A stretch of 63,927 nt of DNA from Acidimicrobiaceae bacterium (GTDB lineage: Bacteria > Actinomycetota > Acidimicrobiia > Acidimicrobiales > RAAP-2), in contig PKXJ01000023.1 in the NCBI GenBank assembly GCA_003132305.1, positions 1 through 63,927 of the forward strand. The letters are read 5' to 3'. Positions within the stretch are counted from its first letter, which is position 1. The number at the start of each line of letters is the position of its first letter. The notes below the pieces were generated by a model, which ran no database searches, was not told the origin of the DNA, and worked only from the letters and a program-made list of their open reading frames with translations. The translations under genes were made by a program, and so were the position numbers. Below are positions 49,157 through 52,733 of this stretch, in pieces.

Positions 49157-49812
49157 CTCGCCTCCGCGCGTCCGCGACGATTCGGTACTACCACCACGTG
49201 CTCGGACCCCCGGGCCGCTTCACCGCGACCACTCACGCGCACGGTGAGATAGCGCGCGTCGAGCCGCGAGGAGGCGACCCACTCGGCCTGCGTGACGCGA
49301 AAGAAGAGGTCGGCCGGAAGGGGCCAGGGGGCGCGCGGTTCGCTGAGCGCGATTAACACGGTGCCGCGTTCACGCACCCGATCCATCAAGCGACGCGCGG
49401 CGCCGTGACCGGCGCGCGAGGGTGGTCGCACGAGTACGAGATCAACGCCGTCGAGAAGATCGGCCGCCGACTCGGCCCACGCGCCTCGCGGGCGTGGCAC
49501 GAAGAGCACGCGGCGCAGATCAACGCCGAGCTCGGCCATCGCCACGACACCGGGATCGTCCACGCCCACGACGGCCGCCCAGTGACCTTGCGTGCTGGCC
49601 TCGCTCAAGAGACTTAAGGCGAGACTCAGTCCACCCAGACCCACCGGTGCCTCGACGACCACCGTGGAACCACGACGAAGTCCCGCGCCGGGAACGAGCG
49701 CGCGCCACGGATCACCGAGGGGCAACGTACGACTCTTCGCCAGTGAAACGGGGCGCAAGGCGGCCAGGAGTTCGGGGGAGAGCGAGGGACGAGGTGGCAA
49801 AAAAGCGAACAT
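49153..49812 (-). CDS. imuA: ImuA-like RecA-fold mutasome protein
   Basis: This 219-aa RecA/SulA-related protein has a degenerate nucleotide loop (VVVEAPVGLGGLSLALSLL), DLVLVRPPSRAGHG and the C-terminal strand RYLTVRVSGRGEA. It is the first gene of the imuA-imuB-dnaE2 operon. The ATG at 49812 lies inside the SOS box, so transcription is probably leaderless or nearly so. The IS1595 element ends 19 bp upstream. Confidence 0.8.
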   Translation of the reverse strand: MFAFLPPRPSLSPELLAALRPVSLAKSRTLPLGDPWRALVPGAGLRRGSTVVVEAPVGLGGLSLALSLLSEASTQGHWAAVVGVDDPGVVAMAELGVDLRRVLFVPRPRGAWAESAADLLDGVDLVLVRPPSRAGHGAARRLMDRVRERGTVLIALSEPRAPWPLPADLFFRVTQAEWVASSRLDARYLTVRVSGRGEAARGSEHVVVVPNRRGRAEAS

Positions 49813-49850
49813 ACGTTCGTAAGAGTAGCCGGTGACGTGTAACTTGACAA
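49806..49850 (-). promoter_or_regulatory. SOS box and hybrid promoter of imuA
   Basis: CGAAC-ATAC-GTTCG at 49806-49819 matches the actinobacterial LexA site and covers the start codon. On the minus strand TTGTCA (49850-49845, inside the IS inverted repeat) is 17 bp from TACTCT (49827-49822, native target sequence), 9 nt before the ATG. So the -35 would come from the transposon and the -10 from the host. Confidence 0.6.
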
Positions 49851-49872
49851 ACCCAGTTTTCGGTGGGATAAT
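49844..49872 (+). promoter_or_regulatory. transposase promoter spanning the left inverted repeat
   Basis: TTGACA at 49844-49849 (inside the repeat), 17-bp spacer, GATAAT at 49867-49872, then the ATG 6 nt later at 49879: a leaderless transcript. Confidence 0.75.
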
Positions 49873-49878
49873 TAAGGT

Positions 49879-50850
49879 ATGAACAAAATAACCCTTGGAA
49901 ACATGGCCTCAAGGATACCAACTGAGGCCGACGCCTATATCTACCTGGAAACCCTTAGATGGCCTGAAAAGCCGATCTGCCCTCACTGCGGGGTGATTGG
50001 CGATCACTACTACCTAAAGCCAGAGAACGGCTTTAGCCGTGGGACCACTCGTGGCTCAGTCTCGGAGCGTCGCGTGTGGAAGTGCAAGGACTGTCGCAAG
50101 CAGTTCTCGGCCACGACGAACACGGTCTTTCACGGTTCCAAGGTTCCCCTTCGGACCTGGCTTTTCGTGTTCTTCGAGATGTGCTGTAACAAGAACGGCA
50201 TTGCCGCGCGTGAGATTGCCAGGAAGTACGGGGTGGCCCCAAAGACGGCTTGGTTCATGACCCAACGCATCCGTGAGGCTATGGCTAACGACTCATCTGG
50301 CAAGTTGTCGGGCAACATCGTGATGGACGAAACCTACATTGGCGGGAAGCCTGAAAACTGGCACAAGAACGACCCTCGCAGAGCGAAGGATGGCTACTCA
50401 ACCGCTCACAAGACCCCCGTTGTCGCCCTCATCTCAGAAGAGACCGGCGAGATACGGACAAAGGTCATAACGACGGTTTCGGGTCCGAACATTCGACAGG
50501 TGATCAAGGAGAACGTGAGTCTTGCAACGTCTATTCTCCACACCGACTCAGCCGGTGTCTATCGGACCATTGGTAAAGAGATGGCTGGTCACCACGTCGT
50601 GAACCACCATGTCGGTCAGTACGTCACGGAGCTTTCAGATGGCACCAACAAAGCAGAGAACTTCTTCAGTCAGTTGAAGCGGTCAATCAGTGGCACGCAC
50701 CACAGCATCAGCCCTGAACACCTAAGTCGCTACGTCACGGAGTTCGCCTACCGACACTCAACGCATGGTCTTAGTGACACTGAGCGCATGGTGCGACTCA
50801 TGGCCCAAACGCCTGGTGTGCGTTTGAGTTATCGGCCGCTTACGAACTAG
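49879..50850 (+). CDS. IS1595-family (ISXO2-like) transposase
   Basis: This 323-aa protein has an N-terminal zinc ribbon (CPHCG, CKDCRKQF), a helix-turn-helix AAREIARKYGVAPKTAWFM, and a catalytic core with VMDETYIGGK, LHTDSAGVY and the third motif NKAENFFSQLKR, as in ISXO2-like transposases. It is intact, no stops or frameshifts. Confidence 0.93.
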   Translation: MNKITLGNMASRIPTEADAYIYLETLRWPEKPICPHCGVIGDHYYLKPENGFSRGTTRGSVSERRVWKCKDCRKQFSATTNTVFHGSKVPLRTWLFVFFEMCCNKNGIAAREIARKYGVAPKTAWFMTQRIREAMANDSSGKLSGNIVMDETYIGGKPENWHKNDPRRAKDGYSTAHKTPVVALISEETGEIRTKVITTVSGPNIRQVIKENVSLATSILHTDSAGVYRTIGKEMAGHHVVNHHVGQYVTELSDGTNKAENFFSQLKRSISGTHHSISPEHLSRYVTEFAYRHSTHGLSDTERMVRLMAQTPGVRLSYRPLTN

Positions 50851-50865
50851 AAACGCAAAGAAGCG

Positions 50866-51393
50866 TCAGAGATTCGGGATTCCCCAAGTCGCACCTTTCG
50901 CGAAGTCCTTGAGATTTTTCTTCAAGATTCTTTGCCACTTATCGTCATCGCTAGCAATTGCCCCGCATTCCACTGCTAGCACGAGAAGATCTTCAATCAG
51001 GACTCGACCAGTTGGGTGATGCAACTTACATTCATACTGACTCGCGTGCAGATGCGGAAAGGCTTTGTCAACGGTGTTATCGGGGTGCCAGTGATAGTCA
51101 ACGATTCCAGTGCTATCCGCTGCGATGAGGCGATAAATGTACTTCGTTGTGTGAACTTTCCACTTGCGATCAGGGTGACCGCTCGGGATAATTATGTAGT
51201 TCTGCGCACAAGTGAACGAAAGGTGGGCCGGTCCTTTCAGACGAGTGGGCTTGCCACCGTTGAAAGTGAGAATCCCCGGCTGACTCGCGTCATAGTTGCT
51301 GACACTTAGTCGGCCCGTCGCAAAACACGAAAGGACGTTCTGAATTGGCTTCCTGTAAGCCCCCACGGCTTCCCGTGGAGTCCTGCCGGACAC
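50866..51393 (-). CDS. IS passenger protein, His-rich, possibly TumE-like
   Basis: This is a 175-aa ORF. Its C-terminal part has YRLIAADSTGIVDYHWHP, FPHLHASQ and HHPTGRVLIEDLLVLAVE. The histidine pattern (PHLH, HHP-x-GRV-x-x-ED) recalls DUF6516/TumE-type toxin families. The likeness is by eye only. It is encoded 5 nt after a 61-aa gene, as in toxin-antitoxin pairs, and converges with the transposase. The first about 35 residues may be upstream of the true start. Confidence 0.5.
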   Translation of the reverse strand: MSGRTPREAVGAYRKPIQNVLSCFATGRLSVSNYDASQPGILTFNGGKPTRLKGPAHLSFTCAQNYIIIPSGHPDRKWKVHTTKYIYRLIAADSTGIVDYHWHPDNTVDKAFPHLHASQYECKLHHPTGRVLIEDLLVLAVECGAIASDDDKWQRILKKNLKDFAKGATWGIPNL

Positions 51394-51398
51394 TCCTA

Positions 51399-51584
51399 CT
51401 AACGACCGTGAGGTCTAAGGACCAAGACTTCCATCATCTCTGCAGTTACTGATTCAGCGAATTCCCCCGCGTCCCACCTGCTTGCGAACTCGCTGCCCGA
51501 CATGCCCAATATTCGCTTGGACGCCTTATCAAACATGTTCCAAGCTTCAGTGCTCGAAACCTTTCTAAATGTGACTTCACTCAT
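51399..51584 (-). CDS. IS passenger protein, 61 aa, antitoxin-like
   Basis: ATG at 51584 follows GGAGG at about 11 nt. The sequence MSGSEFASRWDAGEF is a motif I have seen in small conserved actinobacterial proteins encoded near mobile elements. It is followed by the 175-aa gene after 5 nt, so the two are one unit. A toxin-antitoxin role is inference. Confidence 0.55.
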   Translation of the reverse strand: MSEVTFRKVSSTEAWNMFDKASKRILGMSGSEFASRWDAGEFAESVTAEMMEVLVLRPHGR

Positions 51585-51708
51585 TCCTGCCGACACCTCC
51601 GTTGCTGCCCCCCGCTGACAAACCACAACATACTTGCCTGGTGTGGCATGTGGGTAGATTGTGGAATAAGTTGTGCATAAAGACTGCAATTAGAAGTACA
51701 ATCATTGC

Positions 51709-51843
51709 GTGTCACGTGACGCCTTTGAAGGCTACGACGAGCCAGTCAATATCGACATGGACCCCGAAGAGGCTCTACGAATCCTGTTGAACACCGAAGT
51801 TAAAGACGACGAAGCGACTAAGAACGAGTCGCCAAGCGAGTAA
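51709..51843 (+). CDS. IS passenger protein, 44 aa
   Basis: GTG start at 51709 with TACAAT 6 nt upstream (51697-51702), so again probably leaderless. The product carries EPVNIDMDPEEALRILL, a motif shared by small actinobacterial proteins of unknown role. Its end overlaps the convergent 270-aa gene by 26 bp. Confidence 0.5.
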   Translation: MSRDAFEGYDEPVNIDMDPEEALRILLNTEVKDDEATKNESPSE

Positions 51844-52630
51844 ATAGCGCCGGAAGGTTTTTCACCTGAACCTCCATTGTTGATTCGTAAATCGTCTCTA
51901 CGTCCGGATCGAAGAATCCTCTGATGCGGCCCTTCTGATAGACAGCAACCACTGACGGATAGACCTCAGCGACGTAACGCTGAGTTACTTCTGCGTCGTG
52001 CTGATCGCGCCAGGCGTACCCATCCTCTTGGGTGCCGCCTGATCGCGTCATTGCTTCGTGCGGATTCACGTACCAGATTTCTGTTAATGCTCCTATCAGG
52101 GGAGCGACGCGTAGCAACTCCGCTCGGATTTCATCTCGTTCTTCGGGAGTAGCTGGAACTTGGGGTGGCGCATTAGGGGGCTTCGGTGCTTCCCCATTGA
52201 ACGTGAGATTCCATGAACTGTGGTCTGAGTGCGCACCAGGGCCGAAGAGGACGCCGACCGGAGCGTTCGTCACAACCGATTGGGGTTGTCCGGTTGGCGG
52301 CGGATTGTTAATTTGCTGGCCGATTACTTGCGCGTTGGGGCCCTGCTCAATGTGGCCAGCGTTCACCTGACCCCCTCCGGTCTGCCCTGGTCCCCCGTCG
52401 TCGTTTGTTGCGTCAGCCATGCCGTTCCCTCTTCCTCTCCACCACGCCCACGCGGCGAGAATTCCAGTGGCGGCTATCCAAACCAACCCCAGGAAAAACA
52501 CTACGGTGAAGAGCCCCGAAAGGAACCCTTTCGCGCCGGAGTGCTTCGCGAAATGTTGCACTAACCCGTAACCGGCGGCGGCGACGACACTCATGGTGCC
52601 CGCCGATTCAAAGGATGCCTTATGGCCCAT
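51818..52630 (-). CDS. IS passenger protein with two membrane helices
   Basis: This 270-aa protein starts 21 bp inside the right inverted repeat. It has two hydrophobic segments at about residues 9-25 and 33-60, a Gly/Gln/Asn-rich linker with a glutamine-rich repeat-like stretch, and a C-terminal soluble domain (RDEIRAELLRVAPLIGALTE, EVYPSVVAVYQKGRIRGFF). No family is recognised. Confidence 0.6.
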   Translation of the reverse strand: MGHKASFESAGTMSVVAAAGYGLVQHFAKHSGAKGFLSGLFTVVFFLGLVWIAATGILAAWAWWRGRGNGMADATNDDGGPGQTGGGQVNAGHIEQGPNAQVIGQQINNPPPTGQPQSVVTNAPVGVLFGPGAHSDHSSWNLTFNGEAPKPPNAPPQVPATPEERDEIRAELLRVAPLIGALTEIWYVNPHEAMTRSGGTQEDGYAWRDQHDAEVTQRYVAEVYPSVVAVYQKGRIRGFFDPDVETIYESTMEVQVKNLPALFTRLATRS

Positions 52631-52733
52631 GTTTTCAGCCTAATGCCGTTTGGGTTTGTCAAGTTACACGTCACCGAGTAGCCACTCGTCGTCACACGCG
52701 CCAGTGCCGTCAAATCAAGACAAACTAGAGCCT

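Follow-up and report, generated by a model that had tools for sequence, protein, structure and literature searches.

The subject of this work is an insertion element of the IS1595 family at 49831-52675 of contig PKXJ01000023.1 (assembly GCA_003132305.1) from an Acidimicrobiaceae bacterium, the whole stretch of 63,927 nucleotides being called the window below. It is probable, in our reading, that the element is a cargo-bearing transporter insertion sequence (tIS) of a lineage in the Acidimicrobiia, that it carries a TumE-like toxin-antitoxin (TA) module encoded by a gene pair for proteins of 61 and 175 amino acids (aa), and that its 44-aa gene is a second gene conserved in that lineage. The original prediction had seen here a recently mobile transposon with four passenger genes, a TA-like pair among them.

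The ends, the target duplication and a full-length transposase are all present. The terminal inverted repeat (TIR) GGTGACGTGTAACTTGACAAACCCA has 25 bp, with identical left (49831-49855, + strand) and right (52651-52675, − strand) copies, and the 8-bp target duplication GAGTAGCC stands at 49823-49830 and at 52676-52683, so that in the end scan the ends and the duplication give 30/30. The transposase (323 aa, 49879-50850, + strand) matches Pfam DDE_Tnp_IS1595 with E 2.3e-35 over profile positions 1-151 of 153, has an N-terminal zinc ribbon (Pfam Zn_ribbon_IS1595, E 1.6e-14) and matches NCBIfam IS1595 with E 1.7e-52. Judged from its sequence, the element is an intact one of the IS1595 family, and what had been predicted on the perfect ends, the duplication and the transposase is borne out by the sequence, Pfam and NCBIfam. 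For the proposed recent mobility the undecayed ends are the sole basis, whereas the element is single-copy in its own genome (G000, 2.9 Mb, 35 contigs) and its TIR, with up to 3 mismatches allowed, was found in one of 395 genomes of the class, which is its own. Besides the transposase, four open reading frames (ORFs) lie within the ends, for proteins of 175, 61, 44 and 270 aa; the predicted number of four is thus right, although the 44-aa gene behaves as a conserved gene of the lineage and not as an incidental passenger. No gene of the element matches a resolvase family in Pfam or NCBIfam. Note also that contig 19 of G000 holds a second, distinct IS1595 transposase that is 38% identical to that of the window.

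An IS1595-like transposase (E <= 0.001) was found in 58 of 298 genomes of the order, the own genome counted, and a subset with 47-59% identity stands nearest to the window. Eighteen stretches with related transposases were scanned for inverted ends and flanking 8-bp repeats, the score being taken over 26 end bases plus 8. At least 19 of the 26 end bases match in 15 of these stretches, together with an 8/8 duplication, which with the window gives 16 elements of 1480-3928 bp. The best second-rank pairs reach 26/34, the chance level, which the ends of L068 and L070 (27/34) barely exceed; L053 gave one end, L062 one candidate end and L069 none. By identity or by tree, 15 of the 16 elements belong to the clade of the window transposase, and the sixteenth, L068, lies outside it. 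A tree built from 27 transposases contains 13 of the clade, all of which fall on one side of a branch with support 94/84, and the clade label changes once on the tree, a number that none of 500 label shuffles equalled; five transposases were left out (L065, L066, L069 and L070, split over frames, and L067, truncated). The element ends have in common a GGGGATGTGTAACTTGACAAACCC-like pattern, with variations. ORFs besides the transposase are present in all 16 elements (in L067 the transposase is cut short). Two kinds of plasmid element, with the annotations ISRm32 and ISKpn3, are different: their scanned lengths of 1190 and 1031 bp leave no room for cargo.

Elements with cargo of this kind were reportedly described as transporter IS by Siguier et al. 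in 2009. The window element, with passenger genes between its ends, is one of them, and cargo-bearing IS1595 elements such as tISCpe8 and MTnSag1 are already known from excerpts of PMC3129680 and PMC5704250. It has the same IS1595 transposase, inverted ends, 8-bp duplication and passengers unrelated to transposition; it differs from the tIS in the conserved small second gene of its lineage, which those excerpts do not mention. In a literature search judged from titles and the openings of abstracts, no paper on a small second gene of IS1595 elements was found. The element is of a known kind, the tIS; what sets it apart is a TA-like module that is divergent and unnamed, together with the small second gene that its lineage conserves.

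The cargo of the relatives, whose ORFs were chosen by a home-made codon score and not by annotation, is mostly different from element to element, with many proteins that have no family. Examples are DUF3800 in L055; NYN, DUF5343 and a helix-turn-helix protein in L056; DUF6941, DUF4258 and DUF2283 in L070; and an IrrE-like peptidase in L053. The exceptions are a related two-helix membrane protein common to L055 and L060 and a DUF5343-like protein in L065 (just under the cut-off) and L056 (over it). At least one strong hydrophobic helix is present in 9 of the 30 cargo proteins examined, the 270-aa protein counted. No other copy of the window element was found: the 61-aa/175-aa pair occurs in one of the 19 element loci scanned, the window, and is absent from the 18 others, the 270-aa protein is unmatched, and homologues of the 44-aa protein are present in nearly all. 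It is also noted that one genome, G515, holds four clade transposases (L053, L055, L060 and L062) with partly different cargo, and that L068 (G000:C19:217379-220525) is the second IS1595 element of the own genome, with proteins of 202 and 331 aa and a basic 48-aa ORF.

The 44-aa gene (51709-51843, + strand, GTG start) encodes a small acidic protein. An all-against-all comparison linked it to ORFs of L055 and L057, and inspection added similar small ORFs elsewhere; the resulting profile has 13 sequences, to which 11 of the 15 clade elements contributed and each of which was tested by leave-one-out. Ten of the 13 were still the top match in their own locus, at 19.9-47.9 bits with the next match at 7.0 or less, and that of L062 (20.9 bits) came second to a like small ORF of the same locus (36.6). 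Clade elements outside the profile were also positive, namely L056 (E 4.7e-9), L064 (4.6e-5), L054 (9e-4) and L070 (0.005). A match at E <= 0.01 is thus present inside the ends of all 15 clade elements with ends, the window included, and is graded as clear in 12 (the ten of the leave-one-out test with L056 and L064), as modest in two (L054, L070) and as weak in one (L063), whereas the 16 element loci, 238,748 bases in all, have no match at this threshold beyond the ends. Five genomes with clade elements gave 12 small-ORF matches, nine of them within elements; among the matches outside, one lies at about 0.3 kb and one at about 1.9 kb from a clade transposase, and the third is the ORF of L121 described below (nine of the 12 are themselves profile members, so that three are new). 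In five genomes not listed as transposase-positive, a small control, no small ORF was found. The differences at codon positions 1/2/3 among the window, L055 and L057 are 8/2/16 (window and L055), 8/3/18 and 7/3/15, and this excess at the third position is the pattern of a protein under selection. Because the small ORF recurs in the clade elements while most other cargo differs, the 44-aa gene behaves as a second gene of the element lineage and not as a passenger. A leaderless start of the gene would fit the TACAAT box read from the sequence at 51697-51702 (+ strand), a −10-like hexamer and candidate promoter 6 nt 5' of the GTG. A PADLOC match of the protein to Cas8f (17.3 bits, E 5.4e-4) was set aside as a short, low-scoring stretch.

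Several observations weigh against this reading of the small gene. In the leave-one-out test L063 was weak (top at 7.6 bits, next 3.4), and the test failed for L068, the element outside the clade, which means that the family is loose; three of the 13 members are basic, the other ten having acidic isoelectric points of 4.1-4.6; and one small ORF (G515:C124; L121 5725-5868) stands on a contig where neither a transposase nor element ends could be recognised, and may be a remnant, part of a non-autonomous element or a gene alone. It could be supposed, then, that the 44-aa protein is a passenger in its own right, such as a peptide with an anti-defence or antitoxin-like role, that is common by chance and is no transposition factor, as its either orientation and varying positions among the cargo, as well as the copy with no transposase nearby, would allow. 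We regard this as possible, though the less probable account: the small ORF lies inside the ends of 15/15 clade elements with mostly different other cargo and, in those loci, never outside them, even if 11 of the 15 built the profile, and the small control of five genomes has none. A more radical supposition is that an ordinary insertion sequence trapped chromosomal neighbour genes between two ends by chance, with which the diverse cargo of the relatives, mostly of no family, would agree. This we hold to be very improbable, because all 15 clade elements with ends have extra ORFs, the small ORF recurs among them, and the window passengers, with G+C contents of 0.50-0.58, are grouped about the value of the transposase (0.547), under the 0.581 of the rest of the window.

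Similar ends are also found in IS1595 elements on three alphaproteobacterial plasmids, L071 (3816 bp), L072 (2604 bp) and L073 (1869 bp), with duplications of 8/8, 8/8 and 7/8 and further ORFs inside each. In a scan of 13 loci that included the plasmids, these three were cargo-sized, L080 and L082 plain and L079 a 1518-bp pair; L074, L076, L077, L078 and L081 gave no usable ends, and L022 gave none better than the doubtful pair of L075. Each of L071, L072 and L073 has a small charged ORF of other sequence than the 44-aa gene, and L081 has an ORF close to that of L073. We put forward only tentatively, and consider rather unlikely, the wider idea that cargo-bearing IS1595 elements of the lineage are two-gene systems, in which the transposase would need the small protein or be regulated by it, and this partner would enable the carriage and exchange of cargo, with the alphaproteobacterial charged ORFs as its counterparts. 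On the viral contig L022, whose ends are doubtful, a 184-aa ORF follows the transposase, and its first part is a weak match to the 44-aa profile (E 0.24, 0.065).

Some details of these loci may be added. The charged ORFs at L073 5705-5845 and L081 6764-6910 have DRFKEAARELETDDDEARF... in common, and that at L072 6765-6950 resembles them by eye; all are annotated as hypothetical proteins. Among 32 plasmid records with the L073-type ORF, 30 are Pseudosulfitobacter. ORFs behind the IS1595 transposases at L071 5824-6774 and L022 2838-3680 look by eye like DNA methyltransferases, and L072 carries a gene annotated as a PIN-domain protein.

We now turn to the gene pair, in which the gene of the 61-aa putative antitoxin (51399-51584, − strand) stands upstream of that of the 175-aa putative toxin (50866-51393, − strand). 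Homologues of the 175-aa protein are sparse: the genomes that have one, with the own genome counted each time, number 2/148 among the relatives, 6/395 in the class and 12/396 in the phylum; a single-sequence scan of the genome contigs gave nothing, and an alignment-based scan gave six loci. Further homologues are on a Dermacoccus plasmid, on Pseudonocardia plasmids and on two viral contigs, and genes 30-31 of the Mycobacterium prophage prophiGD44-1 are the pair itself, the closest of 18 aligned (42%), so that the pair occurs on chromosomes, mobilizable plasmids and a prophage. A homologue of the 61-aa partner lies directly upstream in 12/14, 9/12 and 2/2, that is, in 23 of 28 distinct loci, where L007 = L010 and L090 = L096 were each counted once, and where some loci are not fully independent (L016 and L017 near-identical, L008 and L009 close). 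L012 and L019 are truncated toxin fragments that lack a partner, L087 and L092 run into contig edges, and the partner of L093 has E 0.46 only. The pair is a conserved two-gene module, and the TA-like arrangement seen by the original prediction is upheld. It is not confined to such elements: in the flanks examined of the plasmid, prophage and chromosomal pairs no IS1595 transposase was found except a weak fragment beside L094. Neither protein had a family match in Pfam, NCBIfam, PHROG or PADLOC.

In the alignment of 18 toxin homologues Y85, P104, P113, H114, H116, H125 and E134 are invariant and H101, W102, H103 and P127 nearly so, which gives the conserved motifs H101-W-H-P104 and P113-H-x-H116. 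The predicted structure of the 175-aa protein is fairly confident (predicted local distance difference test, pLDDT, 82.5; predicted template modelling score, pTM, 0.76), apart from the unreliable last ten residues, and has one N-terminal helix, mainly antiparallel-looking strands and two C-terminal helices; the 61-aa protein is predicted as three helices (pLDDT 91.3).

It was predicted that the histidine pattern of the toxin resembles that of TumE. In excerpts of PMC10584680, TumE-TumA (PF20126/DUF6516) has predominantly the order antitoxin, then toxin, and TumE, which inhibits protein synthesis, is built of an antiparallel sheet that bears two helices and lacks a confident match in PDB. No TumE was found in 119 relatives and 12 plasmid records, and for this reason the TumE set was taken from 3 of 139 genomes of the phylum and from cyanobacterial plasmids. 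With hhalign, the 18 toxin homologues matched nine TumE with E 4.3e-5 and probability 69%, over a Y-x-Y ... P ... P-H-x-H core; the lowest E of 100 column shuffles was 0.057, and the highest probability of 130 column shuffles and one reversal was 0.96%. On the partner side, 21 sequences matched eight ORFs upstream of TumE, two of which are annotated TumA, with E 5e-4 and probability 31.5% over 21 columns, the lowest of 100 shuffles being E 0.036; here LGMSGxEFxxRWDAGEF aligns with YNMSTREFLKKYNAGEL, and in the window protein the TumA-like motif is LGMSGSEFASRWDAGEF. The likenesses are the gene order, the toxin core (Y-x-Y, P-H, P-H-x-H) in a predicted alpha+beta protein with no confident PDB match, and the antitoxin motif MS-x-x-EF-x3-[YW]-x-x-GE. 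The differences are the length (175 aa, where the nine TumE compared have 119-147 aa), the motifs HWHP and H-x-P-T-G-R-x3-E of the 175-aa protein, the failure of the Pfam model to match its family, and the partial dependence of the profile match on one bridging sequence. From these comparisons the pair is likely a distant relative of TumE-TumA, a divergent TumE-TumA-like module; the predicted resemblance gains some support in this way, and since the defining Pfam model gives no match we leave the pair outside the family. The bridging sequence L101 (1489-1929) is an actinobacterial protein with 38.1 bits, over the Pfam TumE cut-off; no relatives of L101 were found on plasmids. Its tail, LPSGPV, is similar to that of the 175-aa family, PTGRV, and the protein is a possible bridge between the families.

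The relationship has to be weighed against a number of contrary results. Pfam TumE (PF20126) did not match the window protein or ten homologues; when L101 is removed, the toxin comparison falls to E 0.0061 and probability 6%; and the comparison with cyanobacterial TumE alone gives E 0.044, which is no better than the 0.022 of a decoy alignment (small-ORF set A3; other decoys 0.53 and 0.65) and is therefore background. The 175-aa model, moreover, had no match at E <= 0.001 by Foldseek against PDB and BFVD, which is no proof of a new fold, and no confident fold match by VIA-align (best Z 4.3). If the likeness, which would then lie in short motifs (His/Pro, and a helical GE), were convergent, the pair would be an unrelated new TA family, for which the sensitivity of the toxin match to L101, the decoy at E 0.022, the 21 columns of the antitoxin alignment and the silent Pfam model all speak. 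We take this seriously as a possibility that still falls short of the distant relationship, because the two matches are separate, concern adjacent genes in the same order and are both beyond 100 shuffles, and because L101 itself is over the cut-off of the family. Another view takes the pair for a defence module of the abortive-infection kind, or for an enzyme that has a small subunit; the centre rich in His would then bind a metal or act on RNA. The presence of the pair on a mycobacterial prophage, two viral contigs and mobilizable plasmids is in its favour, and, as PADLOC has no match, the system would be an undescribed one; the order of a small upstream and a large downstream gene and the TumA/TumE likeness of both halves, however, fit a TA module. 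We consider the view unlikely, and note that the two functions are compatible.

Based on the favoured reading, a TumE-TumA-like module in a tIS with a second gene, the transposase acts on the 25-bp ends and leaves 8-bp duplications, as the anatomy shows. Very probably the 61-aa protein, encoded upstream, is the antidote to the 175-aa protein, which from the distant TumE-TumA similarity may be a divergent TumE-like toxin that blocks translation, perhaps by acting on RNA. Such a module would make loss of the element costly or give protection from phage; because the lineage carries many other kinds of cargo, the pair is more likely to stabilise the window copy or to serve in phage defence than to secure invasion. 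The 44-aa protein, retained while most other cargo is swapped, would most likely be an accessory or a regulator of transposition, as its retention suggests. TA modules inside transposons are known from the Tn3 family, where according to excerpts of PMC7157771 the pairs are recurrent (39/190), lie near the resolution site and are proposed to secure invasion; unlike there, a pair of the window type is in 1/19 element loci and no resolvase match accompanies it. The combination that was predicted as unusual is thereby less so, cargo-bearing IS1595 elements being likewise established (PMC3129680, PMC5704250, in excerpts). It is now directly testable whether cargo-carrying IS1595 elements rely on a second protein, and the TumE-TumA superfamily, a recent description, may be enlarged by the unnamed TA-like module, which is found on actinobacterial chromosomes, on plasmids and on a prophage. 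The relatives with like transposase and small gene and mostly different cargo illustrate the gain and exchange of genes by small transposons.

The remaining passenger gene (51818-52630, − strand), whose 3' end overlaps that of the 44-aa gene on the opposite strand, encodes a protein of 270 aa. The prediction of two membrane helices is not sustained: one clear hydrophobic helix is at residues 40-58, and the second is under threshold. The protein had no match in the plasmids searched, in any other locus compared or in 98 of 99 genomes of the order, the sole match being the own genome; the Pfam matches SARAF (E 0.018) and Malate_DH (E 0.043) are weak and below cut-off, and no family was assigned from them. 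By its sequence, this predicted membrane protein is an orphan and element-specific cargo.

Finally, we note that a perfect GAAC-N4-GTTC box is at 49807-49818, 12 bp left of the element, and a further one at 2627-2638 of the window; the motif is LexA/SOS-like. To the left the flanking genes resemble an ImuA'/ImuB/DnaE2 mutagenesis cassette and to the right an SRAP-like gene, and the element would presumably sit between them.

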